This document shows, in pieces, positions 21,646-56,973 of a DNA stretch of 64,000 nucleotides. Positions within the stretch are counted from its first letter, which is position 1; each line of letters begins with the position of its first letter. The notes under the pieces were generated by a model that was not told the DNA's origin, did no database searches, and saw only the letters and a list, made by a program, of their open reading frames with translations. A program made the translations under genes and the position numbers. This stretch comes from Brevibacillus sp. JNUCC-41 (GTDB taxonomy: Bacteria > Bacillota > Bacilli > Bacillales > DSM-1321). The DNA is taken from NCBI RefSeq assembly GCF_014844095.1, contig NZ_CP062163.1, positions 3,567,501 through 3,631,500 of the forward strand, written 5' to 3'.

Positions 21646-21661
21646 GAAAGCGGTGATGAAA

Positions 21662-24077: not shown

Positions 24078-24084
24078 TCATTAC

Positions 24085-24123
24085 AAAAGAGGACCATTCA
24101 TCAAATGATGAATGGTCCTTTTA
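24085..24123. terminator. Bidirectional terminator between chbG and ndh
   Basis: AGGACCATTCATC pairs with GATGAATGGTCCT, with an A run before and a T run after, so it can end both converging units. Confidence 0.93.
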
Positions 24124-24149
24124 AATTCAATGAGTGCTATATCTAAAAA

Positions 24150-40709: not shown

Positions 40710-42044
40710 TTGACAAAGTTCACACGTGAAGACATCACTCGTTTAGCGAAAGAAGAAAATGTTAAGTACATTCGTTTACAATTCACTGACATTTTAGGGA
40801 CAATTAAAAACGTTGAAATCCCAGTCAGTCAATTAGAAAAAGCACTTGATAATAAAATGATGTTTGACGGATCTTCCATTGAAGGCTTCGTACGTATTGA
40901 AGAGTCTGATATGTACCTATATCCTGATTTAAATACATGGGTTATCTTCCCTTGGACTTCCGAAAAAGGTAAAGTCGCACGTTTAATCTGTGATATTTAC
41001 AATACGGATGGAACACCTTTTGATGGAGATCCACGTGCAAACCTAAAACGTGTTCTTGCAGAAGCTAGGGAAATGGGCTTCACAGATTTCAATCTTGGAC
41101 CTGAACCTGAATTCTTCCTATTCAAACTGGATGCAGCAGGCGAGCCGACTCTAGAATTGAACGATAAAGGCGGATACTTTGACCTTGCACCTACTGACCT
41201 AGGAGAAAACTGCCGTCGAGATATCGTTCTTGAACTTGAAGAAATGGGATTTGAAATCGAAGCATCCCACCATGAAGTAGCTCCAGGACAACATGAAATT
41301 GACTTTAAATATGCAGATGCAGTTTCAGCTTGCGATAACATCCAAACATTTAAATTGGTTGTTAAAACGATTGCCCGCAAACATGGTTTACACGCGACAT
41401 TCATGCCAAAACCATTGTTCGGTGTTAACGGATCTGGTATGCACTGTAACGTTTCTCTATTCAAAGGCAAAGAAAACGCATTTTATGATAAAGAGGGTAA
41501 ATTGGAATTAAGTAAAACAGCTGAGCAATTTATCGCAGGTATCATTAAGCACGCTCCAAGCTTCACTGCGGTAACAAACCCAACTGTTAACTCATACAAA
41601 CGTCTAGTTCCTGGTTACGAAGCTCCTTGTTATGTTGCATGGTCCGCTAAAAACCGTAGCCCACTAATCCGTATCCCGGCATCACGCGGAGTAAGTACTC
41701 GCGTAGAGGTACGCAGTGTCGATCCAGCAGCAAACCCATACTTGGCACTTGCAGTTATACTAAAAGCTGGTCTTGACGGTATCAAGAACGACTTGACTCC
41801 TCCAGCTCCAGTTGACCGCAACATCTATGTTATGAATAAAGAAGAGCGTGAAGAAGTAGGTATCGTTGATCTACCAGCTACTTTATATGCTGCATTGGAA
41901 ACATTAAAAGCCGATGAAGTCATTAAAGAAGCATTAGGTGAACATTTACTTGAACACTTCGTCGAAGCAAAAGAAATCGAGTGGGATATGTTTAGAACAC
42001 AGGTTCACCCATGGGAACGCGAACAATATATGTCCATGTATTAA
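40710..42044 (+). CDS. glnA: Glutamine synthetase type I-alpha
   Basis: A 444-residue enzyme that makes glutamine from glutamate, ammonia and ATP. Signs: DGSSIEGF near residue 53, the metal-site segment [18 protein letters not shown], the glutamate/ATP loop NRSPLIRIP and the C-terminal [12 protein letters not shown]. It lacks the adenylylation-site region of type I-beta enzymes, as expected for Bacillus, where feedback-inhibited enzyme controls GlnR and TnrA. TTG start after AGGGGGAA. Its last 18 codons and terminator are repeated at 47742 and 54967, so the gene end is an integration target. Confidence 0.98.
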
Positions 42045-42050
42045 TATCTC

Positions 42051-42084
42051 AAACCCTTGGCACCTTTGGTGTCAGGGGTTTTTT
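42051..42084 (+). terminator. Terminator of glnRA
   Basis: AAACCC, CACC, GGTG and GGGGTTTTTT form an interrupted stem with a T run. The same terminator is part of each duplicated glnA tail. Confidence 0.85.
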
Positions 42085-42085
42085 A

Positions 42086-42137
42086 TTTGGTGGGCAAATC
42101 TAAGTCATATATATGAAGTAGATATTTGCCCACCAAA
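42086..42137. repeat. 14-bp perfect inverted repeat just after the glnA terminator
   Basis: TTTGGTGGGCAAAT (42086-42099) and its exact reverse complement ATTTGCCCACCAAA (42124-42137) are 24 bp apart. It is conserved at 47840-47891. In copy 3 only the left arm remains, because a deletion joins it to amidase sequence. It ends next to the integrase stop codon, so it may be a recombinase-binding site or a terminator for the integrase gene. Confidence 0.75.
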
Positions 42138-42138
42138 T

Positions 42139-42432
42139 TCAGCAAAAAAATTTAACCGATGATTCCCTTGGTGTATTCCTCAAATATTCCTCAAACTTAT
42201 CCATGTTTTTCTGTTCAAGTTTTTTGCTTATATGTGCGTAAACATCAGAAGTTATAGCAAGGCTGCCATGACCTAATCTTTTCTGAACATATTTCATATC
42301 CGAACCAGCTTCAAGTTGGAGCACTGCATGTGTATGACGGAGAGAATGGATGGGAAGAGAGGGCAACTCAGTCCTTTTTAAGATATGGCTGAATGCGTTA
42401 AATAAGGTGGATTTTGGCATCAAATAACTCAT
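42139..42432 (-). pseudogene. Phage-type tyrosine integrase, C-terminal fragment (copy 1)
   Basis: The readable 97 residues include IHSLRHTHAVLQLEAG (box II His-x-x-Arg), KRLGHGSLAITSDVYAHI with the LGH motif and the catalytic Tyr, and a charged tail of Int family proteins from Gram-positive phages. The first catalytic Arg and N-terminal DNA-binding domains are absent. The fragment points at the glnA terminator and stops 2 bp from the inverted repeat. The second copy (47893-48178) is cut off at the same place, so truncation came before duplication. Confidence 0.85.
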
Positions 42433-42615
42433 TCATTAACTTCCTTACTGCTGCTCTCCTCTTGGGTTTGCTTTATATGGAGTATATAAGAATCAATATT
42501 TAGTGACTAAGAAAGCTTAAAAACAAGAAGAAGTCTTGAAAAAGAATGGATTAAAATAAGCTGCCCATCGGGTGGCTTTTTATTATGAGTTTAAATTAAA
42601 AGGAGACGATGGAAA

Positions 42616-43761
42616 ATGAATTTTACTAAACTTCATCAATTGGTTGATAAAAGAGGTAAATTAATACCCAAAGGCACTTATTCAAAACGTACAAAAGCAA
42701 TTACCCACCGAGTTTGGCACCATTCCTTAACAAAAAAAGATTTGGGTGGTTCTGATGCTGCAAGCTTCGCGGGTTACCATGTAAACACGCTGGGGTGGCC
42801 GGGGATAGGGTATACATTTGTTATCGGGCCTAAGAATGCTATTAACACACCAAACGGTAAAAGAGCTCGGATTGTATATGCGAATGATATCGACCGCAGG
42901 ACCTATCATGTGGGGAATAGCAATCAGTTCTCTATAGGTATCTGTGTTGCTGGAGATTATCGATATGACACTATGGATGATGCCACTCTTGCCAGTATTG
43001 CAGAACTTCACGCTGTACTTGTTAAAGATGGGATTGGGAAATATGATAAGGCGCATAATGAAATGCCAGGTTATAGTTGGAAAGCATGTTGTCAGTATAA
43101 CTACAGAGATGCTTTTGATTGGAAAGGTTCAAAAACTCCAGCCAAACCAGCACCGGCTCCTGAAGTTTATACAATCCAAGAAGGTGATACTTTATGGAGC
43201 ATTGCACATAAGGATGGAACAGGAGGGGTTCAAGTTGAAGATTTAATAAAAGCGAATCCTGGCATAGATCCAACTACACTAAAAATAGGTCAGAAAATCA
43301 ATTTCGGAAATGCTAAAAAGGTTAATGTTCAACCAGATAAAGATGAAGATAAATTTTCTAACAGTGGAGATCAAACAATCAGTTCCATTCAAAAAATGTT
43401 AAAAAGCAGTTATAAAGCTGGTCTTATTGTTGATGGATTTAATGGCCCTAAAACCAAATCAGCACTTGTCAAAGCACTACAAACAGAACTTAATAAACAA
43501 TTTAATAAAAAACTTGTTGTGGATGGTAAGTGGGGGGCTAAAACAAGGGCTGCTATTGTTACTGTTGAAAAAGGTGCAAAAGGAAATCTAACTTGGATCC
43601 TGCAGGCTGCGCTTTACTTGGAAGGATATAGTCCTGGATCACTCGATTCTATCTTTGGAAAAGGTACTGAATCGGCTTTATATAAATTCCAAAAGGCAAA
43701 GGGAATTTCTACAGATAAGAAAGCAGGTAAAGATACTTTCACTAAATTGTTTGGTGCTTAA
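42616..43761 (+). CDS. N-acetylmuramoyl-L-alanine amidase with LysM and two peptidoglycan-binding repeats (phage-like lysin)
   Basis: A 381-residue cell wall hydrolase. The amidase-2 domain (about 1-175) begins with ITHRVWHHS, whose His residues bind zinc, and has SIGICVAGDYRYD and the second metal-side region YSWKACCQYN. A LysM domain follows (about 186-235: YTIQEGDTLWSIAHKDGT, LKIGQKINF), then two repeats of a PG_binding-1-like fold (about 250-381: VDGFNGPKTKSALVKALQ and the GKGTESALYKFQKAKGI end). No signal peptide is visible, as in phage endolysins. AAAGGAGA lies about 9 nt before the ATG. Degenerate copies at 50168 and 55095 mark element copies. Confidence 0.9.
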   Translation: MNFTKLHQLVDKRGKLIPKGTYSKRTKAITHRVWHHSLTKKDLGGSDAASFAGYHVNTLGWPGIGYTFVIGPKNAINTPNGKRARIVYANDIDRRTYHVGNSNQFSIGICVAGDYRYDTMDDATLASIAELHAVLVKDGIGKYDKAHNEMPGYSWKACCQYNYRDAFDWKGSKTPAKPAPAPEVYTIQEGDTLWSIAHKDGTGGVQVEDLIKANPGIDPTTLKIGQKINFGNAKKVNVQPDKDEDKFSNSGDQTISSIQKMLKSSYKAGLIVDGFNGPKTKSALVKALQTELNKQFNKKLVVDGKWGAKTRAAIVTVEKGAKGNLTWILQAALYLEGYSPGSLDSIFGKGTESALYKFQKAKGISTDKKAGKDTFTKLFGA

Positions 43762-43764
43762 TCA

Positions 43765-43798
43765 ATAGCCCTTACTCGTATTGAGTAGGGGTTAGTTT
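43765..43798 (+). terminator. Terminator of amidase copy 1
   Basis: TAGCCCTTACTC pairs with GAGTAGGGGTTA; TTTTC follows. In the third element the same hairpin is split by an IS3 element. Confidence 0.75.
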
Positions 43799-43910
43799 TC
43801 TGAAAATTCTGGGAGGATATAAAAATTGTGAACATTGTTTTTTTATAATTGAATTGCTCCTATAATAAAAAAGAGCGCGCGCTAAATATTTAATTTGAAG
43901 GAGCAAAGAA

Positions 43911-44678
43911 ATGATTGCAAATCAACAATTAGTTATAAACAATCTTGAAGAAAAAATAAGAATATTCTCTCATGCGGTTAATGGAAAGCTTATCAAAGAA
44001 GAAGATTTCGTTTTGGCGAATACAGAAGTACCAACTGATACATTCAATGTACTTTTGCCGAAATCTTCACATATAAAAAATGCATTTAATATTAGAAGTA
44101 GCATCGAAAATATGTCTCTTAAAGAATATCCCTTTAGTACGTGGATTGACTCCCGGTATTTGAACGCTGACTGGCAAGACCTAATGCAAGAATACGACCT
44201 AAAAGAAGCAGAACGTAATGTAATGATGAAACTTGAAAATACTCTTAATGTTGGTCAAAGAAAGTCCCATCAGCTTATGATTACTCATGTGAGAAATTTT
44301 GAAGAACTTAAGGAATATAAAGAGGTTTTTATGAGCCTATTTGAAGGTACACCAGAAAAAGATGCGTTAGAAAATTATTTTAATAAGTTTTCTGAAGTAA
44401 ATTTGGGTTCAGAAATTCAAATGTTTATTGGACGCGTCGGTGAATTAACTGTATCTACTGCTTTACTAATAGATAGCAAAGAAAGTTATGGTATTTATGA
44501 TGTTATGACAAAAGAAACATTTAGAGGTAAAGGATATGGCAGTGAAATGTTTCAATACCTTCTTACTCAAACAAAAGATAAACAAAAACCCGTTGTCCTA
44601 CAAGCATCAGAGGATGGGAAAAATATCTATAAGCGCTTTGGGTTTATAGATGTTGGAGAAATGGTTGTATTTGAATAA
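43911..44678 (+). CDS. GNAT family N-acetyltransferase (two-part, 255 aa)
   Basis: The C-terminal half (about 125-255) is a GNAT domain: GIYDVMTKETFRGKGYGSEM shows the RGKGYG acetyl-CoA loop, and IYKRFGFIDVGEMVVFE is the closing YxxxGF strand. The N-terminal half (about 1-120) has FSTWIDSRYLNADWQDLMQ and looks like a degenerate second GNAT or substrate domain, a layout seen in Bacillus acetyltransferases. GAAGGAG lies 8 nt before ATG. It is cargo of element 1, between terminators of both neighbours, so it is its own unit. Confidence 0.75.
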   Translation: MIANQQLVINNLEEKIRIFSHAVNGKLIKEEDFVLANTEVPTDTFNVLLPKSSHIKNAFNIRSSIENMSLKEYPFSTWIDSRYLNADWQDLMQEYDLKEAERNVMMKLENTLNVGQRKSHQLMITHVRNFEELKEYKEVFMSLFEGTPEKDALENYFNKFSEVNLGSEIQMFIGRVGELTVSTALLIDSKESYGIYDVMTKETFRGKGYGSEMFQYLLTQTKDKQKPVVLQASEDGKNIYKRFGFIDVGEMVVFE

Positions 44679-44696
44679 GGAGTTTTCTTATGAAGT

Positions 44697-44742
44697 AAAA
44701 GGGCGATCCATATTAGTCATGTCTGATATTGATCGCCCTTTT
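44697..44742 (+). terminator. Terminator of the GNAT gene
   Basis: AAAAGGGCGATC and GATCGCCCTTTT form a perfect 12-bp stem, and the inner bases can pair further. Confidence 0.95.
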
Positions 44743-44796
44743 AACAAGGTCAATTCAATATAATAAAGAAATACATATAAAAGTAGGGGGATTTGA

Positions 44797-45063
44797 ATAG
44801 ATTTTGATTTTTTATTAAACCATCCTGATAAGATAATAGAAGTTTCGGAAATGATTTATAAGGAATTTGTAGTAAAAACGGGAAGTGGTATGAATTTTGA
44901 GGATGTTATTAAACACTTTTCAAATACGAGGGACAATACAATTCCGATCATTTCTCTAGCCCGAACTTATTTGGGGAAGGAATTTTTTTCTGTCTTTAAC
45001 GAGAACGTATGTTCGTTTATAATGAATAAAAAGGAGGGATCTTCTTATGAGTACAATTCGTGA
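44797..45063 (+). CDS. Uncharacterised protein before yolD-like gene, unusual start
   Basis: An open frame reads DFDFLLNHPDKIIEVSEMIY and on to NKKEGSSYEYNS, about 88 residues. The frame is closed by TGA just before an ATA codon at 44797, and AGGGGG lies 6 nt before that ATA, so ATA may be the start; the first ATG is at 44851 with no ribosome binding site. It overlaps the YolD-like gene by 17 nt. I do not recognise the family. If ATA is not used, the gene has lost its start. Confidence 0.45.
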   Translation: MDFDFLLNHPDKIIEVSEMIYKEFVVKTGSGMNFEDVIKHFSNTRDNTIPIISLARTYLGKEFFSVFNENVCSFIMNKKEGSSYEYNS

Positions 45064-45391
45064 TAGAGGGCTTGTTAAATGGCAAGCAGCATTAATCATG
45101 CCTGAACATAAAGCTTTAAATAAAAAAATAGGTGAGGTTGATTATTTCTTAAATAAAAAACCTATCCTTGATGAATACCAGGTTGAAGAGTTTGAAAACA
45201 ACATTCATTATGCAATGGAATATCATTTACCGATAAGATTTAGATTACATAACGAGGGAAGTCCACAAGAATTGGATGGTTATTGTGTGTACATTCATCC
45301 TGTCACAAAAGAGTTACGCATTCAGAAGAGAGATAGTTCCTTTGAGAAAATTAAATTCGATGAAGTTATTAGTGTGATTGTAGAGGATTAA
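45047..45391 (+). CDS. YolD-like family protein
   Basis: A 114-residue protein of the YolD family found in SP-beta-like prophages and plasmids. It opens with IRDRGLVKWQAALIMPEH, the family hallmark (RGxxKWxxAxMxPEH), and ends with the beta-rich VYIHPVTKELRIQKRD and a closing FDEVISV strand. Many members lie beside UV-damage repair polymerases (UvrX/YqjW), but none is nearby. AAGGAGGG lies 8 nt before ATG. It is cotranscribed with the frame upstream. Confidence 0.85.
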   Translation: MSTIRDRGLVKWQAALIMPEHKALNKKIGEVDYFLNKKPILDEYQVEEFENNIHYAMEYHLPIRFRLHNEGSPQELDGYCVYIHPVTKELRIQKRDSSFEKIKFDEVISVIVED

Positions 45392-45421
45392 AAAAAGCCC
45401 TTCTCATTAGTGAAGGGCTTG
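45391..45421 (+). terminator. Terminator of the YolD-like gene
   Basis: AAAAAGCCCTTC pairs with GAAGGGCTT; a modest T run follows. Confidence 0.8.
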
Positions 45422-45422
45422 A

Positions 45423-45584
<162 letters not shown>

Positions 45585-45684
45585 CCCCGGATCACATTGC
45601 CGAAGTCATCTTATAGCAGTAGCCTTGAATCTTTAATATAGCTGTCTACTTTTGATCATATAGTTCACACACAACTTTTTTATA

Positions 45685-46428
45685 TTATTTTAAATTCGAC
45701 CAACTTTTTTCAAGTTTATTATAATAATAGAACCATGAAGATAATGCCACAGCATTACTAACGACAGCCACTGGTCCTGCAATTTTTGTCAATATTGTTT
45801 TCGCTGTTGCCCAAGAAATTATTTTCCCTGCTACTAATGAACCACCACTAAATCCAGAAACTAGCCAACCAACCGTGGTTGAACTCTCAGTACCTCTAAG
45901 AGAATCCACATTATTTGCATATGTATTAAAAGGTTTAGAACTTGCTAATTTAGCAGTTTTATTTGGTTCCTTTAGATAACGAGCAGTACCTTTACCAGTA
46001 GTGAAATTCTTAGTGTAACTAATGTTCAATATTGTAACCATTGATTTGTTACCACTTGTAGAAGCCATTGGATAAAAACCACTCGCTTCTTCCTGTGTTT
46101 TAGGTTCTGGTATTTCTTCGAAAAGAATTACATCTTGATCTACTATTTTATCGTTAGTAAGAGTTGTTGAAAAGTCTTGTATAAGTTCATGGTTGTCTTC
46201 ATTATAAACTTTTGTGTGTATTATTATTGTGTTTTCATCAATTGTTTCAGTTGTTTCTATATAACGTGTTTGAACACCCAAGATTGTCAATATGTACTCA
46301 GATTTTTCTTCAGTATCCGTAATAATCTCCATACCATCTTCAGGTATGATTGTTGAACCTGAAGTTGCTAATGCTGTGTTACTCGGAATAGAGAATGCTA
46401 GACTTCCTACAAGTAGGATAAAGCTCAT
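45685..46428 (-). CDS. Secreted bacteriocin-like protein (about 247 aa)
   Basis: A predicted secreted protein. The N-terminus is a signal peptide: ILMSFILLVGSLAFSIPSNT with a likely cut after NTALA. The middle (about 30-140) is polar, rich in Thr, Glu and Ile. The C-terminal 70 residues are Gly/Ala/Ser-rich and hydrophobic: GWLVSGFSGGSLVAGKIIS, then WATAKTILTKIAGPVAVVS, then a Tyr-rich end. This layout, a processed polar part with an amphipathic hydrophobic tail, is like large bacteriocins of the geobacillin-26 or halocin kind (similarity of design, not a verified homology). No start with a good ribosome binding site is seen; lysines encoded just before this ATG suggest the true start is upstream. 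A membrane protein gene lies 83 nt upstream on the same strand. Confidence 0.55.
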   Translation of the reverse strand: MSFILLVGSLAFSIPSNTALATSGSTIIPEDGMEIITDTEEKSEYILTILGVQTRYIETTETIDENTIIIHTKVYNEDNHELIQDFSTTLTNDKIVDQDVILFEEIPEPKTQEEASGFYPMASTSGNKSMVTILNISYTKNFTTGKGTARYLKEPNKTAKLASSKPFNTYANNVDSLRGTESSTTVGWLVSGFSGGSLVAGKIISWATAKTILTKIAGPVAVVSNAVALSSWFYYYNKLEKSWSNLK

Positions 46429-46511
46429 TAAGATTGAAATTTTTTTAATGTTTTTCCAAAACTCCCTTTTTATGTTTTCGGTTAAGCAGCGAGTCTTATA
46501 CTAACATACTA

Positions 46512-46817
46512 TTAATCTTTTTTAAAGGAAATAAATACAAAACAGTAAAAAAATAGAATTAAAGAAAAAGTGAAAAATGTTAGAATCCCACTTAAAAAAT
46601 GAGCGTATAGTGCAAAAATCATTGAAAGATTTGATAGTGCAATGATTAAAAAAATGTTCACCCTATGCTTATTTTTATAAAACAAACTAAAAATAATTGA
46701 TAAAAAAAACAAGATACTGGCCAAATAAAATACAAAATCCGCCGGGGAACTTTTCTGGTACCGTACAACATACCAATAAAGAAGTACAACAAAAAATATT
46801 TTTACAAACTTGAACAC
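46512..46817 (-). CDS. Small membrane protein, possible immunity protein
   Basis: A 101-residue, very hydrophobic protein with three or four helices (KIFFVVLLYWYVV, FVFYLASILFFLSIIF, IFLIIALSNLSMIFALYA, ILTFFTFSLILFFYCF). GTG at 46817 is preferred because AAGGAGAG lies 6 nt before it; the longer frame from 46922 lacks such a site. It precedes the secreted protein gene on the same strand. Small multi-helix proteins next to bacteriocin genes are often immunity factors, so that role is possible here; no family is recognised. Confidence 0.55.
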   Translation of the reverse strand: MFKFVKIFFVVLLYWYVVRYQKSSPADFVFYLASILFFLSIIFSLFYKNKHRVNIFLIIALSNLSMIFALYAHFLSGILTFFTFSLILFFYCFVFISFKKD

Positions 46818-47024
46818 AAAATCTCTCCTTCTATGTATTTCGTAAGTATGAATTATTATCTTTTTCGTAAAAATAGTCTTTTGATTTCTTTTAAAAATCA
46901 CTATTAATTCCATATAACCCATAATTAAGAAATTATATTAATGGTAAATATAACATATATTCCTGATAGAAGGTACTCTATATATCTTGTACATAACAAA
47001 TGCTGATAGGCTTGACCTTCTTAA

Positions 47025-47246
47025 CTAACTCCGTAATATCATATCATCGTTATAAATCACTTGAACTATACGAGAATCCTTGCTAGCTGCAAATTCTGAC
47101 TTAATCTTCTGAATCCATTCATATGCGGCAATGGCAGCTGCCCAATCTGGATCCTTCTTATAATCTGAATTAGGAACGGGGAAGCTTCCACTCTGCAAGA
47201 AATTAATTTCTCTTGAATGTAAGTGAACCTTGATATTTATGTTCAA
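47025..47246 (-). CDS. Small uncharacterised protein with a degenerate paralogue in element 2
   Basis: A 73-residue protein: NINIKVHLHSREINFLQSGS, then DPDWAAAIAAYEWIQKIK. TTG at 47246 follows GGAGG. A paralogue lies at 52366-52605 with its N-terminal half conserved. Past the stop, the +1 frame encodes DITELVKKVK, which the paralogue carries in frame, so this copy has probably lost its proper C-terminus by a small indel. Function unknown; the pair shows that elements 1 and 2 share ancestry beyond the amidase. Confidence 0.5.
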   Translation of the reverse strand: MNINIKVHLHSREINFLQSGSFPVPNSDYKKDPDWAAAIAAYEWIQKIKSEFAASKDSRIVQVIYNDDMILRS

Positions 47247-47301
47247 CCCTAAATACCTCCTGGAGTTAGTATAGTTTTATGGCCACATGTTAGTTATTTT
47301 C

Positions 47302-47480
47302 TTACTTCTTCATTTGCCTCTTTTCAATATATACCCAACTATAATAGAACAGCCAGAAAACCAAGGGTACTAAAAGTACATAAGCGTTAAATTCCTTTGA
47401 ATGATGATATTGATATATTATTAAAATTATTCCTATAATTAATGCCGGCAGTAAAAGAATAAAATATTTTTCTTATGCAA
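47302..47480 (-). pseudogene. Small two-helix membrane protein, one-base frameshift
   Basis: After GGGAGAGAGG, a TTG start reads LHKKN; shifting by one base in the A run gives KYFILLLPALIIGIILIIYQ, then a second helix and IEKRQMKK-stop (about 60 residues). The start and the body lie in different frames, so a single base has been lost or gained. It resembles small phage-type or immunity-type membrane proteins. Confidence 0.45.
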
Positions 47481-47741
47481 TTTACCTCTCTCCCATTTTG
47501 TCATTCAAAGCACTCCTCTCTCTAAAAATGTAATCAATCCATATATTAACATAAATTCGAACTGGTTTTCGTTATAGATGAAAAAGAATGAATGTATCAC
47601 TATGAAAAAATGACCACATTCTTACCACCAAATAAAAATAAAAAGGTGAAATAACCTAAAAGAAATTTGTATACAGGTTATAGAAAGCCTTGTTAAATAA
47701 GCCTTTATGTATCTTTTTGAAAAAAAACGAAAGGCGAAGAT

Positions 47742-47900
47742 ATGTTTAGAACACAAGTTCACCCATGGGAACGCGAACAATATATGTCCATGTATTAATA
47801 TCTCAAACCCTTGGCACCTTTGGTGTCAGGGGTTTTTTATTTGGTGGGCAAATCTAAGTCATATATATGAAGTAGATATTTGCCCACCAAATTCAGCAAA
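47742..47900 (+). repeat. glnA tail, copy 2
   Basis: Encodes the last 18 residues of glnA again, with stop, terminator and the 14-bp inverted repeat. It is preceded by unrelated sequence, so it is a duplicated tail and not a gene. It marks the junction of elements 1 and 2. Confidence 0.9.
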
Positions 47901-48178
47901 AAAAATTTAATCGATGATTCCCTTGGTGTATTCCTCAAACTTATTCATGTTTTTCTTTTCAAGTTTTTTGCTTATATGTGTGCGTAAACATCAGAAGTTA
48001 TAGCAACGCTGCGATGACCTAATCTTTTCTGAACATATTTCATATCCGAACCAGCTTCAAGTTGGAGCACTGCATGTGTATGACGGAGGGAATGGATGGG
48101 AAGAGAGGGCAACTCAGCCCTTTTTAAGATATGGATGAATGCGTTAAATAAGGTGGATTTTGGCATCAAACAACTCAT
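47893..48178 (-). pseudogene. Tyrosine integrase C-terminal fragment (copy 2), frameshifted
   Basis: Nearly the same as 42139-42432: it keeps HSLRHTHAVLQLEAG and KRLGHRSVAITSDVYAHI, but a 2-bp insertion just after the Tyr codon shifts the frame and removes the tail. It is truncated at the same N-terminal point as copy 1. Confidence 0.85.
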
Positions 48179-48304
48179 TTATTAACTTCCTTTCTGCGCT
48201 CTCCCACTAGGGTTTGCTTTATATGGAGTATATAAGAATCAATATTTAGTGACTAAGAAAGCTCAAAAACAAGAAGAAGTCTTGAAAAAGAATGGATTAA
48301 AATA

Positions 48305-48332
48305 AGCTGCCCATCGGGTGGCTTTTTATTTC
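48305..48332 (+). terminator. Hairpin at the end of the shared integrase block
   Basis: AAGCTGCCCATCGGGTGGCTTTTTATT, with GCCCATCGGGTGGC as the stem region; the same hairpin occurs at 42558-42584. Homology between elements 1 and 2 stops right after it. Confidence 0.6.
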
Positions 48333-48447
48333 AGGCTCTGTTAAAGGATGTTGCTGATTTTCTTATGGAACAAATGGGGCGGAATAAATAAAAAAGGCCG
48401 ACCAATATTGAACTATGCCCCATTTTTCGGACAGTATAAAAAAGTGC

Positions 48448-49354
48448 CTATGCGGCTAATAGGTGGTCCCGGTATTGTACCGGGGCCATTTTCTTTAGTC
48501 CCCATTGATAACGACACTCATTGTATTCTTCTATAACTCGATCAACTTCTTCCTTCACAGCCGTTAGATTAGTACATGTTTTATATTCTGCTAAATTTTT
48601 TAAGTGGCCAAAAAAAACTTTCCATCGGCGCATTATCCCAACAGTTTCCCTTACGGGACATGGATTGGGTTAGCCCAAGTTCCTTCACTTTGTTTTGAAA
48701 TAGAGGATGGGTGTAATGGAATCCTTGGTCAGAATGCAGGATTGCACTCGTATGGAACTCGTGATTCACAGCCTGCCTTAGCTTGTTTAACGTTTCATAA
48801 ACGATATTCATATCTAATGACGTGGATAAATGATACGTAACTATTTCTTTTGTAGCCGCATCTTTTACGCATGACAAATACGCTTTTTGACCCTTTCCAT
48901 AATAAAGGTAGGTAATGTCAGTAAGCAGAACTTTTCCTGGCTCCTTCTGTTTGAATTCACGATTAAGAAGATTTGGACAAGTAAGGTGCTCCTGGGTTGC
49001 CTTAGCCATCTTTCGATACGGATTGGCCCTTCTGATTTTTGCGAAGAGATTATATTCTGCCATCAACCGTCTGATTTTCTTATGATTCATGACGGCCGAA
49101 TAATCATTTTCCATAACCATTTTAATTTGGAGAGCGCCTACTTTTTCCTTTTTAGTGAGGAATATATTTTTAATTAATTCTATGTCCAAAACATCCTGTT
49201 CCTCGCGTAACTCACGGCTTGGAGCTGCCTTTAACCAATCGTAGTAACCACTTCGACTTACACCAGCCAATTTGCATAGATAGGAAACAGCCTTCTTTAA
49301 CTGGTATGTCCTGATCGTTCTTTCAATCAGATAGAACTTCTCAGCTGTAGTTAG
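48448..49354 (-). pseudogene. IS150-like OrfB transposase, frameshifted
   Basis: DDE integrase-core transposase. HTH_21-type start GVSRSGYYDWLKAAP, then the catalytic acids in LLTDITYLYYGKG, ILHSDQGFHYTHP and NCWDNAPMESFF. Right after MESFF an eight-A run causes a frameshift: the rest (FFGHLKNLAEYKTCTNL to GLKKMAPVQYRDHL) is in another frame. In an intact element OrfAB is made by -1 slippage, but this break lies after the last catalytic Glu and probably kills the enzyme. Confidence 0.85.
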
Positions 49355-49356
49355 AA

Positions 49357-49782
49357 TTATTTCTTTTTCAACGCCCGCCTTTCTAACTCTTCCAGCTTTT
49401 TTAGAAAGTCATTTTCTGCTTCAAGGAATTTGATTCTCGCTTCGGCCTTCCTAAGTTGATCCTCTACAGACTGTGGCTTGGAAGAAGGGCGGCCTGTACT
49501 TCCTTTTCCACGGCGTTCCGTAAGGAAGCCTTCCTCACCAAACCTTTCAAAGGTATCACGCCAGCGCTGTAGACAACGCTTAGGTTGTTCCTTACCAATT
49601 ATTTCGAGATTAAATCCCTGTTCTATGAAAATTTGAGAGGGGGATTTCCCCTTTTTATATTCCTTAACAGCTTTTGTTTTAAATTCAGGATTATATGAAA
49701 TAGAACGCTCTGAAGCACTTATGATATTTGGATTCTTTTCAAGTTCTTTAATCTGAAATTCAGTATATATTTTCTTACTCAT
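49357..49782 (-). CDS. IS150-like OrfA (helix-turn-helix part of transposase)
   Basis: About 141 residues. A helix-turn-helix (KEYKKGKSPSQIFIEQGFNL, then KRCLQRWRDTFERFGEEG) binds the IS ends, and a leucine-zipper-like coiled coil closes it (DQLRKAEARIKFLEAENDF). ATG at 49782 has GGAGGG upstream; the longer frame is not needed. The end overlaps the orfB frame, as expected for programmed slippage. Confidence 0.85.
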   Translation of the reverse strand: MSKKIYTEFQIKELEKNPNIISASERSISYNPEFKTKAVKEYKKGKSPSQIFIEQGFNLEIIGKEQPKRCLQRWRDTFERFGEEGFLTERRGKGSTGRPSSKPQSVEDQLRKAEARIKFLEAENDFLKKLEELERRALKKK

Positions 49783-49911
49783 AGAAACCCTCCGTCCATA
49801 CTCATTACACCTATTGAAACATAAAAAACCCCGGATAAGGGACACTTTTTTATGTGTGTCCGTTATCCGGGGTATAGTTCAATAAAGGTCAGCATTTTTC
49901 ATACTATTTCT

Positions 49912-50037
49912 CTAACAGAAACCGCCACCGAAACAGCTAGCTCCAACAATGATTAAGAGTATAAACAAAACGACAATAAAGGCGAAACCTCCACCAAATC
50001 CAATACCGCCATCACAACTTGATTCACAACCTGACAT
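49912..50037 (-). CDS. YjcZ-family sporulation mini-protein (41 aa)
   Basis: A 41-residue protein: MSGCESSCDGGIGFGGGFAF, then IVVLFILLIIVGASCFGGGF and a final Cys. This is a Gly/Cys-rich start followed by one hydrophobic helix, the pattern of the YjcZ/YczN-type mini-proteins found in spore formers. AAGGAGATG lies before the ATG. It is encoded on an accessory element between the IS3 element and the amidase remnant. Its terminator appears to have been split by the IS. Confidence 0.8.
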   Translation of the reverse strand: MSGCESSCDGGIGFGGGFAFIVVLFILLIIVGASCFGGGFC

Positions 50038-50167
50038 AAAGACATCTCCTTTTTTGTTTATTAAGGAGGTAAAACTCAAATGGGTTATATTACCTTATGC
50101 TCTAATCAGGAAAATGACACTTAACGTTTAACAAAGCCTTATTTAAATTAAAAGGAGAAGATGGAAA

Positions 50168-51314
50168 ATGAACTTTATTAACCTTCCACAATTAGTCGAT
50201 ATGCGAGGCAAATTAGAATCGAACGGTTCATACTCAAAGCGAACCAAATCCATTACCCACCGAGTTTGGCACCATTCCTTAACAAAAAAAGATTTGGGTG
50301 GTTCTGATGCTGCAAGCTTCGCGGGTTACCATGTAAACACGCTGGGGTGGCCGGGGATAGGGTATACATTTGTTATCGAACCTAAGAATGCTATTAACAC
50401 ACCAAACGGTAAAAGAGCTCGGATTGTATATGTGAATGATATCGACCGCAGGACCTATCATGTGGGGAATAGCAATCAGTTCTCTCTAGGTATCTGCGTT
50501 GCTGGAGAATATCGATATGACACTATGGATGATGCCACACTTGCCAGTATTGCAGAACTTCACGCTGCACTTGTTAAAGATGGGATTGGGAAATATGATA
50601 AGGCCCATAATGAAATGCTAGGTTATAGTTGGAAAGCATGTTGTCAGTATAACTACAGAGATGCTTTTGATTGGAAAGGTTCAAAAACTCCAGCCAAACC
50701 AGCACCGGCTCCTGAAGTTTATACAATCCAAGAAGGTGATACTTTATGAAGCATTGCACATAAGGATGGAACAGGAGGGGTTCAAGTTGAAGATTTAATA
50801 AAGCGAATCCTGGTATAGATCCAACTAAATTAAAAATAGGTCAGAAAATAAATTTTGAAAATGCTAAAGAGGTTATTGTACAACCAGATATAAATGAGAA
50901 GGACGAAACTTCAAACTGTGGAGATGAAACAATAAGATCCATTCAAAAAACTTTAAATAGCCGTTTGCAGCTGGTCTTATTGTTGATGGATTTAATGGCC
51001 CTAAAACCAAATCAGCGTTTATTAAAGCTCTACAAACAGAGCTTAATAAACAAGTCAAAAAAAAACTTGTTGTGGATGGTAAGTGGGGAGCTAAAACAAG
51101 GGATGCCATTGTTACTGTTGAAAAAGGTGCAAAAGGAAAGCTAACTTGGATCCTGCAGGCTGCGCTTTACTTGGAAGGATATAGTCCTGGATCACTCGAT
51201 TCTATCTTTGGAAAAGGTACTGAATCAGCATTATTAAAATTCCAGAAAGCTAAAAAGATTACTGCAGACAAGAAGGAAGGCAAAGCAACTTTCACTGAAT
51301 TGTTTGATGCATAA
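50168..51314 (+). pseudogene. Amidase copy 2 (disrupted)
   Basis: Close copy of the gene at 42616. The amidase domain is open to residue 193 (ending YTIQEGDTL), where TGG has become TGA in the LysM domain. A base is missing further on (near 50805) and again in the first peptidoglycan-binding repeat (near 50965); the last 80 codons (from 51072) are open again. The N-terminal domain alone (193 residues) could still be made, without its wall-binding parts. Confidence 0.9.
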
Positions 51315-51403
51315 TTTAAAAGCAGTAATATAAAGGATTTGATTGGTTATAATACTAATGTGAAATACAATGTGGCAGGCCCTCGCAAGTTTTCACTCAT
51401 TGT

Positions 51404-51434
51404 AAAAAGCCCTTCTCTTGGTGAGAGGGGCTCA
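51404..51434 (+). terminator. Terminator after amidase copy 2
   Basis: AAAAAGCCCTTCTC and GAGAGGGGCT form the stem; only a weak T tract follows. Confidence 0.6.
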
Positions 51435-51452
51435 ATAATTATTTTATATTTG

Positions 51453-52276
51453 TTAGTTCTTGTTTATAAAGTCAAGTAATAATTTGTGTGAATATTTTAT
51501 ATCACTATTTATTTCACTATCCTCTACAGAGCCTAAAATATGCAACGCTTTTTTTATTATGATTTCGTCAGTTACAAACTCATCGGTAATTAATTTAACT
51601 AAACTTTCAGATGCGTTTTCTTGAATATATATATCTGAGTTAGTTTCAAGGAACATGATCAGTGTAGATGCGAATTCTGTCAAATCTTTATAACTACATT
51701 CCCATATGCTTATACCCTCTAAAATCTCCTCAGTGTCTTTACTTTTGCACAACTCTTTTGCACGTTCAACGGATAACTCATATCCACCAATATATGCGGA
51801 CAAATCTTCTGTTGGCGGTTCATATAAATTTTCAATCATTTCTTTAAAAGTCTTAAAGATAACAGAAATTTTGTTCTCTTCAGTGTCTATAAAAGTTATT
51901 TCTGGTTCCTCTTTATTTTTTCTATAATCTAATACAGTCCAGGTATGTCCATCACCGGATAAAGTAATGAAGTCTTTCTCTCTAATCCCCCATTCTTTAA
52001 GTATTGCTTTTGAAGTGAAAATACCTTTATTTTTTTTTATGCCATAAAGATAATGTAAAGGTATATGGTCATTAGCCCATGAATTTTTACAATTTACGGC
52101 AACGCTTGATATTTGAGGTACCCACCATTTTTAATCTTCAGCAATTCAATATACTCTTTTGGAAAGTTAACATTGAATTCTCTTTCTGCTTCTTTAATAT
52201 CTTCTTCAGTCAATTTTGCTAATTCAATTTCTTCATCTATATAATCTTCATCATCTTCTGCCCATATATTTTTCAT
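51453..52276 (-). pseudogene. SMI1/KNR4 (SUKH) immunity-type protein with a frameshift
   Basis: Two frames join into one SUKH protein. Frame 1 (from ATG at 52276, good AAGGAG site) gives LTEEDIKEAEREFNVNFPKE and LLKIKNGGYLKYQALP, then stops. Frame 2 continues with NCKNSWANDHIPLHYLYGIK, ILKEWGIREKDFITLSGDGH and TWTVLDYRKN, through to the 128 residues ending LLLDFINKN. A single missing base near 52099 explains the break. SUKH proteins often neutralise secreted toxins; no toxin gene is beside it. It is the second SUKH gene in the window (see 26898). Confidence 0.8.
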
Positions 52277-52365
52277 TAATATTCTCCTTAAATAAATGAC
52301 AGGAAACAATCTTCGTATTAAACGATCGTCCCTGTTACTATAAAAAGGCATATCCCCCTAAATTA

Positions 52366-52605
52366 TAGACTTAACCTTCTCAACTAACTCCGTAATATCA
52401 TTATCCTCGTTATAAACCACTTGGTCTATTCGGAAATCTTCACTAGCTGCGTAACTACGTATATTTGTTGAATCCACTCGTATGCCGCAACGGCAGCTGC
52501 CCAATCTGGATCCTTTTTATATTCTGAATTAGGAAGAGGAAAGCTTCCACTCTGTAAAAACTTCGTTCCTTTTGAATGTAAGTAAACTTTGATATTAATG
52601 TTCAC
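52366..52605 (-). pseudogene. Degenerate paralogue of the 73-residue gene
   Basis: From GTG at 52605 it reads NINIKVYLHSKGTKFLQSGS and DPDWAAAVAAYEWIQ, matching 47025-47246, then shifts frame. The tail NEDNDITELVEKVKSI is in another frame. It supports common descent of elements 1 and 2. Confidence 0.65.
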
Positions 52606-52737
52606 AATAATACCTCATTGACCCAAGAGTTTTTAGTTTTACAATATTAATTAACATAAAAATAGTGTAAACAGGTTTAGTAATTATAATAACAGGGTAA
52701 TAGTATTTTTGGTATACAATAATAGGGGGATTAAATT

Positions 52738-53559
52738 ATGAAGGGGTCACTAGAAACATATAAATTTTTGGAATTCATCCAAGAAAATAAAGAGGATTTT
52801 GAAGGTTCATTATTAAACGAAGCATTTAATGTGAAAGACAAAATTGAAGAAATTTTAACAATCGGTAATATTGACCTGATAAATAATGCCCATAAGCTGG
52901 TTCAATACATTATTAAGGGTGAAGAACAAGAACTTCAATCATTTGCTAAACAAGAAGGTATAGCTTGGGCGACACACGAAATACCGTTATATTTCAAATT
53001 AGAGTGGGTACAAGCCATTCGAAGAACCTTGTGGAAGTTCCTACAAAAATATAATGAGGTACAGAATAAAGTTATTACTGAAGAATTTTTTTTGGTAGAA
53101 AAACAAGTTAATAATCAAGTAGATAGGTTTTTAAATGTGTTTTTTATCACATATTCTCAATACAAAGATTCGTTGATAATGGCTCAAAAAGAATTGGTTG
53201 AAAATCTTTCGGTGCCTATAATACCAATAACACCCACTATATGTATTTTACCTCTAATTGGTGCGGTTGATCTTTACAGGACGAATATTCTCGAGGAAAA
53301 AGTTTTAATAGAGATTGGAAAATTACGTATTCAAACATTGATTATGGACTTATCTGGAATTATGGAAATGGAACCTGAAGTAATGAATCATTTAATGAAG
53401 ATTATTGACGGCACTTCTTTAATGGGATGCACCACTGTGATTACCGGGTTAAGGGCTGAAGTGGTTAGAAATATGATAAACTTAGGAATGAGATTAAATG
53501 AAAAGGCACAAACATTAGGAACTTTACAACAAGCGTTGAATAAATATTTAACAAGTTAA
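52738..53559 (+). CDS. RsbR-like STAS domain protein (stressosome family)
   Basis: A 273-residue protein. The N-terminal half (about 1-150) is helical and fits the non-haem globin sensor of RsbR paralogues; the C-terminal half (about 155-273) is a STAS domain: SVPIIPITPTICILPLIGAV, LIMDLSGIMEMEPEVMNHL and CTTVITGLRAEVVRNMINLG. In RsbRA two Thr are phosphorylated by RsbT; here the first site reads DLSGIMEME and lacks the usual Thr, and the second region GLRAEVV has Arg where many have Thr/Ser. It may join stressosomes without the normal switch residues (inference). AGGGGG lies before ATG. It is cargo of element 2. Confidence 0.82.
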   Translation: MKGSLETYKFLEFIQENKEDFEGSLLNEAFNVKDKIEEILTIGNIDLINNAHKLVQYIIKGEEQELQSFAKQEGIAWATHEIPLYFKLEWVQAIRRTLWKFLQKYNEVQNKVITEEFFLVEKQVNNQVDRFLNVFFITYSQYKDSLIMAQKELVENLSVPIIPITPTICILPLIGAVDLYRTNILEEKVLIEIGKLRIQTLIMDLSGIMEMEPEVMNHLMKIIDGTSLMGCTTVITGLRAEVVRNMINLGMRLNEKAQTLGTLQQALNKYLTS

Positions 53560-53780
53560 TCACGTAGAACTATAGGAGGGTCGCTTTGCCGACTCTTTTT
53601 TCTTTTCAATATATTCTTTCCAACTGTCTAACTATTTTTTCCTGCCCAGGAGTTACATCTTTATATAAAAAATATAGTTAGGTATTTAATTCAACACCAA
53701 TCAATTCGTTTTCTTCTTCAATTAACCTGCCCCGATAGTTCCATAAGAAAATAAGATCCATAGGCAGGAAAAACCTTATC

Positions 53781-54625
53781 TTAATTAAGATTGTCCATAA
53801 AATCAGCATCAAAGTAAAGATCGTTCATAAGCTTGTTCACAATCCCGTTAAAATAAGCAAACTGTCCTTTGTGCATCTTAACTCCACTCTTAACCTTCAT
53901 AGCAAACTCTTTGAATGCTTTGGTGCCGATTTCTACTTCCTGAGCTTTTGTAAATGCTCTTTTGTTAGTAGAATAATCAACCACTCTATTACTCTGCTTA
54001 ATTACCTTCCAGAATTCCTGTATAGTTTCAGCTTTTTCGTAGAAAGAACCAACTAGATTACTAAATACACCTGGAACCCAATGGGCTACAAAGTTTGCTT
54101 GTTTTAATGAGGTTTCTGGAGATTTATCAACACAAGAGAATTGAACAACGGCTTTACGTTTATTGTTTTTAATATTTTGTTTTAAGAAAACAGTAGTTGT
54201 TTTAATGGCCGGACACTTCTTGGACCTTTTCACAGGGGGCTTGCCGGTCATTTCATCTTTCATAGGTTGAATAATGATGGCATTGGCTGTTTGCATCATA
54301 TCCTTTTTTCTCTTCATGGGTATTGGCGGATCATGCCAAGGTCTTCAAGCTGCTTCATTAAACGTTGAACAGTTTTATAAGATACTTCAAGTTAAGCTGC
54401 AATGGTATTTTTGCACATGTAGCTTACACCAAATTGCTTACAGCTGTGGCGTTAAAGAACTTCCAGTAATGCAATAAGTCTAGCTTGTACATCCGCACGC
54501 TTAATAGACACACGAATGATGTCTCTGTACGACCTTACCGTATTATTTAATTCTTCAATGTCATTGAAAGATGATAAGTTGTCATATGCCTCATCATTTG
54601 CGATTACATCAATACGTTTCTTCAT
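53781..54625 (-). pseudogene. Winged-helix protein (replication- or plasmid-type), multiply disrupted
   Basis: Pieces in three frames: a start from ATG 54625 (MKKRIDVIANDEAYDNL to ARLIALLEVL), then VSYMCKNTIAA with a stop inside, then LEVSYKTVQRLMKQLEDLGM (recognition helix), and finally the long basic part from 54317 (KRKKDMMQTANAIIIQP to FDADFMDNLN). Together they form one protein with a helix-turn-helix near residues 70-105 and a basic C-terminal half. It recalls plasmid or phage proteins of Bacillus with a DnaD-like layout, but I do not recognise the exact family. Confidence 0.65.
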
Positions 54626-54966
54626 TAATATAGTCTCCTTTAGGAAACAAAAAAGCAACGATTCACCATTGATTAGCAAACCGTTGCGAAGAAACCCATA
54701 ATGTATTAAACTACATCCAAGGGTTCAGCAAGTGTTTGCCTATCGTGAGTAGGCGGACGGTTTAAGAAGTGCTACCAACACAACTTAAACACGCTGTGCT
54801 TTTTTTGTTTTTAGATTTATAAAAGTGAAGAGTATACTAAAAATACTGCCCGAAAATCACCCGATAATTCTTGAGATATTATGAGTAATTATGATAAATG
54901 AATTTTAGTGAATGCTTATAAATAGGCGTTTTAGTGAAAGTTTGACACTATTTTAAAGGTAAGAGC

Positions 54967-55094
54967 ATGTTTAGAACTCAAGTTCACCCATGGGAACGCG
55001 AACAATATATGTCCATGTATTAATATCTCAAACCCTTGGCACCTTTGGTGTCAGGGTTTTTTGTTTGGTGGGCAAATCTAAGTCATATATATGA
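54967..55094 (+). repeat. glnA tail, copy 3
   Basis: Again the last 18 codons of glnA, stop, terminator and the left arm of the inverted repeat. It then jumps, inside the 24-bp gap of the inverted repeat, into amidase sequence (ATTCAAAAAACTTTAA). A deletion from the integrase region to the amidase tail explains this. Confidence 0.9.
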
Positions 55095-55381
55095 TTCATT
55101 CAAAAAACTTTAATTAACCTTATGCAGCTGGTCTTATTGTGGTTGGAAAGTGGGGAGCTCAGACTAAAGCTGCCATTGTCACAGTGGAGAAAGGTGCAAA
55201 GGGCAATCTTACATGGATCCTACAGGCTGCACTATATTTGGAAGAATATACCCTTGGATCACTTGATTCTGTTTTTGGAAAAGGCACCGAGTCAGCTTTA
55301 AATGAGTTCCAGAAGGGAAGAAGTTTATTTGCAGATAAGATAGCAGGTAAAGCGACTTTCACTGAAATGTTTGCTGCATAA
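55095..55381 (+). pseudogene. Amidase copy 3, C-terminal remnant
   Basis: Encodes only the last peptidoglycan-binding repeat: VGKWGAQTKAAIVTVEKGAK, LTWILQAALYLEEYTLGS, GKGTESALNEFQKGR and a closing TFTEMFAA. It lacks the catalytic domain and a start. It shows that a third element, mostly deleted, stood here. Confidence 0.9.
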
Positions 55382-55438
55382 TCAAAAGCCCTTACTCATT
55401 TTGAAATGTACCCTTTGTAAAGGACAGTTTAAAAAAGC

Positions 55439-56353
55439 CTAGGCAGCTTGAAAAAGATGATTTCTGTATTGAACAGGAGTCATCTTTTTTAAATTCCATT
55501 GGTATCTGTAGTGATTGTAATACGTCATATATTGCTTAATTTCTTTTTTTAATTCATCTAAAGTTGAACATGCTTTAATAGATGCTTCATCTTTAAAATG
55601 GCCAAAAAAAGATTCTTGAGGTGCATTATCCCAGCAGTTCCCACGCCTTGACATCGACTGGCCTAATCCCAGTTTTTTTACTAATTTCTGAAAGTCCGGA
55701 TGGGTATAATGAGTTCCCTGATCAGAGTGGATAAAGGCATTCTTTGCTTTGTGAAATCTTCGATTTTTCTTTAACTTGAGGAGGGTATCCGTAGCCAGGT
55801 CCATGGTAATGCGATCTGATACATGGTAAGCCACAATTTCATTGGTCGAAGCATCCTTAATCGTTGATAGATAAGCTTTCTTTCCTTGGCCATAGAACAA
55901 ATATGTGATATCTGTGAGTAGTATTTTACCTGGAACTTCCTGTTTGAATTCCCTCTTCAAAAGATTCGGCACCACACGGTGCTCGTGAGTGGCTTTCATC
56001 ATTCGTCTGTACGGATTTGCCTTCCGAATAGGGCATATAATGCTGTACTTCTTCATGATTCGCCGGATACGCTTCAAATTATAGACAACATTAAATTGAC
56101 CCGCCAAAGTCATTTTGATCTGACGAGCCCCTTTCTTACGATTTTTGAAATGGAATGCTTTTATGATGATTTCTTTCACTGCCTCATCCTTTTCATCTTT
56201 TCGAATTCTTTTTTCCTGTGATTTCACTGAGAAGTAATTATAATAACCACTTCTTGAAACACCGACTATTTTACAAAGGTATTTCACCATATGTTTTAGT
56301 TGATATTTTTCAATCACGGAGCGAATTAGGATATATTTTTGGAAAGGAGGAAG
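55439..56353 (-). CDS. IS150-like OrfB transposase (intact)
   Basis: About 292 residues or more. HTH_21-type start GVSRSGYYNYFSVKSQEKR, catalytic acids in LLTDITYLFYGQGKK, AFIHSDQGTHYTHPDF and GNCWDNAPQESFFGHFKDE, and the usual C-terminal TYYNHYRYQWNLKKMTPVQ. The frame overlaps the orfA end, consistent with -1 slippage to make OrfAB. No disruption is seen, so the element could still move. Confidence 0.92.
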   Translation of the reverse strand, partial: LPPFQKYILIRSVIEKYQLKHMVKYLCKIVGVSRSGYYNYFSVKSQEKRIRKDEKDEAVKEIIIKAFHFKNRKKGARQIKMTLAGQFNVVYNLKRIRRIMKKYSIICPIRKANPYRRMMKATHEHRVVPNLLKREFKQEVPGKILLTDITYLFYGQGKKAYLSTIKDASTNEIVAYHVSDRITMDLATDTLLKLKKNRRFHKAKNAFIHSDQGTHYTHPDFQKLVKKLGLGQSMSRRGNCWDNAPQESFFGHFKDEASIKACSTLDELKKEIKQYMTYYNHYRYQWNLKKMTPVQYRNHLFQAA

Positions 56354-56355
56354 AA

Positions 56356-56769: not shown

Positions 56770-56973
56770 AACCTTCTCCAGTCCCATGTTGTGTTTTCTC
56801 GTTGTGTTTCTTAATTATACAAAAAAGTACCCTATAGGAGACTTTTTTAGGTGTCTACTCTATAGGGTACAGTTTATTTAGAGTAGGGGCTTTTTTATTT
56901 AAAACTCCGTCTAAAGTACATTCACTTAACAAGTGCATATGATAATTTTATAAACTGTGAAGGGTTGAGAAAA

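Follow-up and report, generated by a model that had tools for sequence, protein, structure and literature searches.

The 3' end of glnA as a probable recurrent site of phage integration in Peribacillus and related Bacillales

Why should the last codons of a glutamine synthetase gene, together with its terminator, recur twice downstream of that gene in the company of broken integrase and amidase genes? The question is raised by a 64,000-bp stretch of the Brevibacillus sp. JNUCC-41 chromosome (contig NZ_CP062163.1; here called the window, to which positions without a prefix refer). The window corresponds to G000:C1:3567501-3631500 in our genome set, in which G000 is a single contig of 5.49 Mb. 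The gene in question, glnA (40710..42044, + strand), encodes a protein of 444 amino acids (aa) whose orthologues are 90-99% identical in 36 of 36 Peribacillus genomes, G000 included. An earlier reading of the letters, the original prediction, took the repeats for the scar of integrative elements that had repeatedly entered one site. With a probability of about 93%, we favor a history in which phages integrated repeatedly at the 3' end of glnA and their prophages then decayed.

The three repeats, or tails, each consist of the last 18 codons and the stop of glnA; they lie at 41988..42044, 47742..47798, and 54967..55023 (all + strand) and share 97-98% identity across 129 nt that include the stop codon and the terminator. 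In self-BLAST, copies 1 and 2 align over 604 columns (41985-42584 with 47739-48330, 94.9%), copies 1 and 3 over 129 columns (41988-42116 with 54967-55094, 96.9%), and copies 2 and 3 over 129 columns (47742-47870 with 54967-55094, 97.7%, E 3e-57 in a 17-kb self-comparison); identity at this level rules out a chance repeat. Every copy opens at the ATG that is codon 427 of 444 and runs to the stop, and the differences among the coding parts are all silent (CAG/CAA, ACA/ACT), as had been claimed. It was likewise correct that the first copy, the putative attL core, is the only one joined to glnA, which is complete upstream of it; the second is free of the gene. Each tail carries along a terminator hairpin (42051..42081, + strand, for copy 1; fold -21.7 kcal/mol, z -5.7). 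Beyond the hairpin of copy 1 lies a 54-nt inverted repeat (42085..42138; fold -27.3, z -8.0), and a second complete one was located by self-BLAST at 47839..47892. The codons and terminator thus occur three times as predicted, whereas the inverted repeat does not: copy 3 holds its left half alone, its match to the other copies ending at 55094. Outside the window, the genome contains a fourth tail, inverted and damaged (G000:3645653), a terminator and integrase remnant without a tail (G000:3658736), and a fragment of the inverted repeat's right half (G000:3666589); a search of the whole genome found such remnants to about 57 kb from glnA and no farther.

Next to the first tail, an open reading frame (ORF) of 97 aa (42139..42432, - strand) encodes the catalytic end of a tyrosine integrase (PF00589, E 1.4e-10), with homology to intact integrases up to about 42423. 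A second truncated integrase, recognized from the ORF list and from its homology to intact integrases, follows the second tail (47972..48178, - strand) and is cut further, to 68 aa, by a stop codon. The amidase gene in block A, the interval between copies 1 and 2, is whole (42616..43761, + strand, 381 aa) and encodes a phage endolysin of the N-acetylmuramoyl-L-alanine amidase class, with Amidase_2, LysM, and PG_binding_1 domains and a match to phrog_1493 (endolysin, E 4e-36). Its counterpart in block B, between copies 2 and 3 (50168..51314, + strand), is 91.2% identical and broken into 193 and 80 aa. The original prediction of a truncated integrase and an amidase after each of the first two tails therefore stands, with the amendment that after copy 2 the integrase is interrupted by a stop and the amidase is split. 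The amidase end described after the third copy is present as the C-terminal part of a third endolysin (55095..55381, + strand; self-BLAST), fused to the middle of the inverted repeat.

Relatives show the same parts in a more complete state. Intact integrases next to glnA, for which the original prediction had recommended a search, were found in five Peribacillus genomes, with relatives of the window's fragment at the equivalent place in G031, G013, G018, and G010. In G018 the intact integrase lies next to glnA and identical 57-nt tails stand 48.4 kb apart, one completing glnA and the other, the displaced end, at the opposite side. Nine of the ten proteins scanned from this element matched phage families, among them terminase, portal, head, tail, primase, repressor, annealing protein, and endolysin, and phage structural genes thus lie between the two ends. 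By their integrase and tails, the elements of G013 (46.3 kb) and G010 (42.2 kb) are arranged as in G018.

The tail also occurs in a phage genome. The integrases of SPbetaL5 (OQ921345.1) and G031 are 58% identical, and both proteins, the two that were scanned, contain Arm-DNA-bind_4, SAM-like, and catalytic domains. Along SPbetaL5 the integrase gene is followed by TTGACCACC-type repeats in both directions, 18 glnA codons with a stop, and more repeats of the same type, the layout to be expected of attP; from its sequence, this region is a candidate attP carrying the end of the target gene. In the SPbetaL5 segment at 16751-24990 (L091), the tyrosine integrase is annotated as a hypothetical protein. 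Under a loose limit of E <= 10, the tail peptide had matches in eight records of the phage collection, of which SPbetaL5 and four Listeria records reached E <= 5e-5. In IMG/VR the exact tail pattern was found in 28 stretches of 23 contigs; some of the 28 end at contig edges, no glnA body was returned in 25, and integrase sequence of the family was present in 15. One of these contigs, 2687453793 (42.8 kb), has the integrase nearest to that of the window among the loci compared (92% over 239 nt). It lies at one end, a right-end tail lies 4.4 kb from the other end, and a second integrase of the family lies just beyond that tail, which indicates that the source genome was also stacked. For the window's own phage type, the tail was seen at the right end of this prophage contig alone. 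The integrative elements of the original prediction are best read, more narrowly, as temperate tailed phages, and the amidase as phage endolysin; an endolysin gene near the prophage right end explains why "amidase" genes recur beside the tails.

To what extent is this integrase bound to this gene? An alignment (A1) of five intact integrases, all of which came from glnA-linked elements, was scanned against 84,980 species genomes. Among 60 confirmed loci in named genomes, 48 had at least 49% best-segment identity and 12 had 32% or less. A glnA tail lies beyond the integrase 3' end in all 48 of the former and in none of the latter, a few of which have merely several hundred bases past the match. 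The tail is within about 200 nt in 47 of the 48 and 1.5 kb away in L137; it is partial in L142 and degenerate in L157. The glnA body is joined in 42, and two of the other six loci stop at a contig edge. These 48 loci, which include two each from four species, carry 17 genus names, from Bacillus and Halobacillus through to Brevibacillus and Paenibacillus. Because the scan used integrase peptides alone, the tail beside the integrase is an independent finding. Integrases 45-47% identical lie beside glnA in G012 and G022, and one 40% identical lies away from glnA in G001, which places the subfamily boundary near 40%. The comparisons support the glnA 3' end as the probable attB of one subfamily of tyrosine integrases.

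The position of strand exchange can be approached from the tails. The free tails match glnA from codon 427 onward. Near relatives differ at codons 428-429, which read either TTT AGA or TTC CGN, and they do so even between genes that are otherwise 97-98% identical (G015 and G021, for example). Among 97 close pairs, faster change of the whole tail than of the glnA body was not seen (a mean of 2.38 differences per 57 nt, with 118 of 408 body windows as high); codons 428-429 alone stand out, contributing 1.58 of the 2.38. This pattern fits an exchange just before codon 428, with the end of glnA supplied by the phage.

A second target may exist in a paralogue. A gene 55-56% identical to glnA, here glnA2, is present in G002, G001, G014, and G026. 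In G002, arm-like repeats and a broken subfamily integrase lie downstream of it (L080, G002:C1:2512000-2531999), and two more copies of its end, 3.3 kb (96%) and 4.9 kb (90%) farther on, make three tail copies in all, which start near the codon matching glnA 428. The G001 glnA2 has the repeats without an integrase, and those of G014 and G026 have neither. According to the original prediction, an integrase of the same type at a different attachment site would count against it; the sole same-family integrase found at another gene was this one in G002, at the 3' end of the glnA paralogue. The G002 array appears to be a case of an integrase moving to a paralogous site.

The inverted repeat is best read as a pair of arm-type sites for the integrase. 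In the window it consists of TTGGTGGGCAAAT and ATTTGCCCACCAA, half-sites of the GGTGGGCA type, and its 13-mers recur at the right end of the IMG/VR prophage 2687453793 (IMGVR_UViG_2687453793_000001), where TTGGTGGGCAAAT is matched over 13 nt in both directions (0 of 300 shuffles as good). In four of four elements with an intact integrase (G018, G013, G010, and SPbetaL5), a motif of 10-15 nt is common to the repeat on the integrase side and to the flank of the far tail, with 3, 1, 0, and 0 of 300 shuffles, respectively, doing as well; the shuffles, 300 per element, were of single bases and of the left side only. The motifs are of three kinds: GCCCGA (G018, G010), ACCCC (G013), and GACCACC (SPbetaL5). 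The repeat folds well and was considered as a second terminator alone, yet the recurrence of its half-sites at a related prophage right end speaks against that. This recurrence, together with letters that vary between integrase types, is why we prefer arm sites, and the repeat could serve in both roles.

From these elements the following mechanism can be proposed. The glnA 3' end would be attB for phages of this integrase subfamily, and attP would carry a synonymous copy of the last 18 codons with the terminator, flanked by arm-type repeats for the N-terminal domain of the integrase. Strand exchange near codon 427 would leave glnA whole, with a phage-supplied end (attL), and would displace the old glnA end to the opposite end of the prophage (attR). 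As the target would be kept at both ends, further phages of the subfamily could enter beside glnA. In G000, several prophages would have entered and then lost most of their DNA as deletions and invading insertion sequences eroded them; what survives would be the tails and terminators, the arm sites, the C-termini of the integrases, and the endolysin genes.

A survey of Peribacillus, which covered one genome per species and counted integrase sequence with E <= 1e-5 no more than 3 kb from the glnA stop, indicates how common such remains are. A subfamily integrase follows glnA in 23 of the 36 genomes, its nearest end 59-138 nt away (in G001 it amounts to 27 residues only). It spans the whole protein in one open frame in five of these (G010, G012, G013, G018, and G031) and is cut or broken in the others. 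G014 counts among the 13 genomes without one since its contig stops about 90 nt past glnA; an integrase and a tail occur together on another of its contigs. In the stretches fetched, which are 1.4-96 kb long, at least 13 of the 36 show more than one tail downstream of glnA. G022 adds to this minimum with three further tails, at distances of 20, 41, and 52 kb from the gene; integrase remnants adjoin two of these, and the last lies within 4 kb of a gene that we take, from its unscanned sequence, to be lexA. Remnants in G016 lie within 90 kb of glnA. In an order-wide scan of 397 genomes for the exact tail pattern, counted by eye, 27 had at least two matches (five of 13 sampled members of the genus and 22 of 384 others), and three matches were found in three genus members only; some of the double matches outside the genus are likely to be second glnA genes.

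The order of decay offers modest evidence on the order of entry. Damaged tails occur in seven genomes (G000, G006, G016, G021, G028, G031, and G033), and in each the damaged one is farthest from glnA. That position is trivial in G006, G028, and G033, which have a single such tail; for the other four, each of which has at least two tails in differing states, we calculate the chance of this order at about 1 in 72. It suggests that newer entries lie next to glnA, in agreement with stacks of elements in Streptococcus, where the most decayed are reported always to be the most distant from the target gene (PMC7563491).

The internal structure of the two blocks complicates the history. In self-BLAST, blocks A and B are 95% identical over 0.6 kb and 91% over 1.17 kb. 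Ahead of the block A endolysin lies the end of a gene (42424..42584, + strand) that is 79-80% identical to sequence just before the endolysin in G018 and G013; we take the gene, from its position, to be holin-like. It has been fused to the integrase fragment by deletion, and the same joint of integrase and pre-endolysin gene occurs in both blocks, at about 42424 and 48170. No good match across it was found in the other 35 Peribacillus genomes searched. A joint held in common implies that at least one of the blocks was probably copied or imported after the deletion.

The right ends of the blocks differ in type. The flank before copy 2 has arm-like repeats of the GACCAC/ACCACC type (47612..47632) and is 85-94% like G016 right ends; the flank before copy 3 has the GCCCGA/ACCCGA type (54847..54864), like G018 and G006. 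A region of small ORFs at the end of block A (47006..47246, - strand), recurrent near the right ends of several such prophages, has homologues near tails in G018, G031, G016, and IMG/VR 2687453793, and a second copy was identified by self-BLAST and homology to relatives at 52359..52604 (- strand). A broken phage DNA-binding gene in two pieces (53781..54679, - strand; phrog_1835, E 1e-52 and 7e-12) lies within another right end, 82% identical to G006 through the tail. The left and right arms of block B have no motif in common, and the mismatched arm types at its two ends rule it out as a single element; the comparison argues firmly that block B is a composite of different prophages joined together. 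The repeated-integration scar of the original prediction is supported; a reading of each inter-tail block as one element fails for block B.

Several observations weigh against serial integration as a sufficient account. The common deletion joint is not predicted by it in its simple form. The claim of a chimera is firm for block B only, since the arms of block A have a 12-mer in common (0 of 300 shuffles); block A as a single element is doubtful, the mismatch there being one of closest relatives alone. No integrase among the window copies is intact. With one genome per species in the sample, the candidate empty sites lie in other species of the genus with a short glnA-lexA gap and no integrase, such as G004, G027, and G035, in which the next core gene is 2.9-9.6 kb from glnA. 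Three of the 13 genomes without an integrase (G021, G030, and G033) still have at least two tails. The glnA-lexA interval, measurable in the 25 of 36 genomes whose contigs keep the two genes together, ranges from 2.9 kb (G004) to 424 kb (G019), and in G000 (G000:C1:3609541-3898709, 289 kb) most of it is left unassigned to glnA phages; that these phages account for the whole distance is unsupported, given remnants confined to about 57 kb in G000 and 90 kb in G016. Finally, decayed copies of tail and terminator occur at a great distance from glnA (2.6-2.7 Mb in G003, G019, and G024) or on a separate contig (G034); they are L193 5183-5271, L194 4694-4781, L195 4996-5082, and L196 4488-4574. Within 10 kb of sequence retrieved for each, neither an integrase nor an endolysin of the glnA-phage type was found. 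Upstream of the G003 copy the sequence is GACCAC-like, and downstream of it GCCCGA-like. Such copies could stem from old stacks displaced by chromosome rearrangement or from integration at secondary sites.

The rival that best survives these points is RecA-mediated duplication, in which a single integration was followed by unequal crossing-over, or by import of a neighboring block, through the repeats. It would account for the deletion joint held by A and B and not matched in the other genomes, and for the high identity of the two blocks over 0.6 and 1.17 kb. Plain duplication of a unit would not explain why copies 2 and 3 are preceded by right ends that differ in phage type, however, nor why the blocks carry different cargo past their endolysins, and other species contain separate prophage-sized elements; we consider it possible, though unlikely, as the principal explanation.

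Less probable still is that the blocks are deletion derivatives, satellite-like or akin to the cis-mobilizable elements (CIMEs) that accompany integrative and conjugative elements (ICEs), which lost their interior and the integrase N-terminus and were moved in cis or in trans by helper integrases. One joint with different right-hand neighbors would suit such movement, intact subfamily integrases exist in relatives, and CIMEs of like logic have been described for ICEs (PMC7563491). The joint, however, was found in G000 alone among the 36 genomes, and block B, with its mismatched ends, is not now a complete small element. A CIME is recognized as a decayed element between matching, functional attL and attR, without an integrase of its own; the arms of block B have no common motif, and those of block A have their 12-mer.

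Duplication of the glnA end by insertion sequences or at random, without site-specific recombination, might draw on the IS3-type elements within the block and on the few decayed tails far from glnA in other species, but three observations contradict it: the tail starts at the same point across species, it is coupled to a single integrase subfamily at 48 of 48 loci, and a phage genome carries it. We give this reading almost no weight. With repeated phage integration and decay as the preferred history, blocks A and B are most simply accounted for by several phages and several deletions, with a deleted block copied or imported at least once. A bolder extension, which we offer tentatively and think rather doubtful, is that glnA is a lasting target throughout the Bacillales for one integrase subfamily, which diversified its arm sites, moved to glnA2 in one Peribacillus, and overwrites the last 18 codons with synonymous versions, while its deletion derivatives can still be moved or reshuffled by helper phages or by recombination between tails.

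Prophages beside glnA, and decayed stacks of ICEs and islands at one att site, are already known. Bacillus subtilis NDmed and NDfood carry a 44.2-kb putative prophage immediately downstream of glnA (PMC4175202), the same chromosomal place as in the window, although the passage on it describes a single prophage and names no att site, integrase, or stack. The Macrococcus prophages phiMPNRL/St13/116 and St21/332 are also reported downstream of glnA (PMC12016501); they are likewise temperate phages at its 3' side, but belong to another family of Bacilli and are compared here by location alone. In Streptococcus salivarius, tandem accretion and CIMEs are described at the 3' ends of rpsI, rpmG, fda, and rplL (PMC7563491), with one att site for all members of a stack as here, but these are ICEs and integrative and mobilizable elements rather than phages, two or three per stack. 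Tandem ssrA islands in Dehalococcoides similarly leave target-end repeats within 100 kb downstream of the gene (PMC3146451), whereas their target is a tmRNA gene, the islands are mobilizable, and the integration module is different. Erosion of integrase and att site after integration at a 3' end is described for PAISt (PMC4057263). SPbetaL5 has a related integrase and the glnA-tail site, but is a 127-kb phage of the SPbeta type; the integration-locus table of a review of SPbeta gives spsM, kamA, and intergenic sites, and glnA is absent from that table (PMC8270828). In the open-licence PMC literature we found no paper on SPbetaL5 and none naming glnA as attB of this subfamily or describing the Peribacillus stacks.

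The glnA system is a clear natural case of lock-in between integrase and target, with one subfamily and the end of one metabolic gene across 17 named genera. The attachment site becomes predictable from sequence for any phage or prophage with an integrase of the subfamily, part of the variation downstream of glnA in Peribacillus genome annotations is explained, and the tails between decayed prophages may serve as a layered record of infection.

Other features of the region can be noted more briefly. When the window ORFs were scanned, the phage-family matches were the endolysin, a YolD/phrog_3352 gene, and the broken phrog_1835 gene alone. The YolD-like gene (phrog_3352) lies in block A with a GNAT acetyltransferase gene (43911-45391, + strand), and relatives of this region occur in several other glnA arrays. 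Block B contains, as cargo, a short gene of the SUKH family (immunity-type) and a STAS-domain gene (52094-52351 and 52738-53559). An insertion element of IS3 type, presumably of the IS3 family, lies in block B before the endolysin (48448..49845, - strand; two ORFs with rve, HTH_21, and HTH_Tnp_2 matches), and a second one, about 66% identical to it in parts, lies just past the third endolysin remnant (55439-56787, - strand). An ORF at 59371-59920 (+ strand), which looks to us like a broken IS110-type transposase, starts with MNPVVGLDVAKGESQ, as does a sequence in G018 (L045:14154). Another partial Phage_integrase match, with an internal stop, occurs at 8866-9045 (- strand). Near the contig end, a lysis module at G000:C1:5484481-5484656 (L004) has a pre-endolysin part 96% identical to the window remnants.

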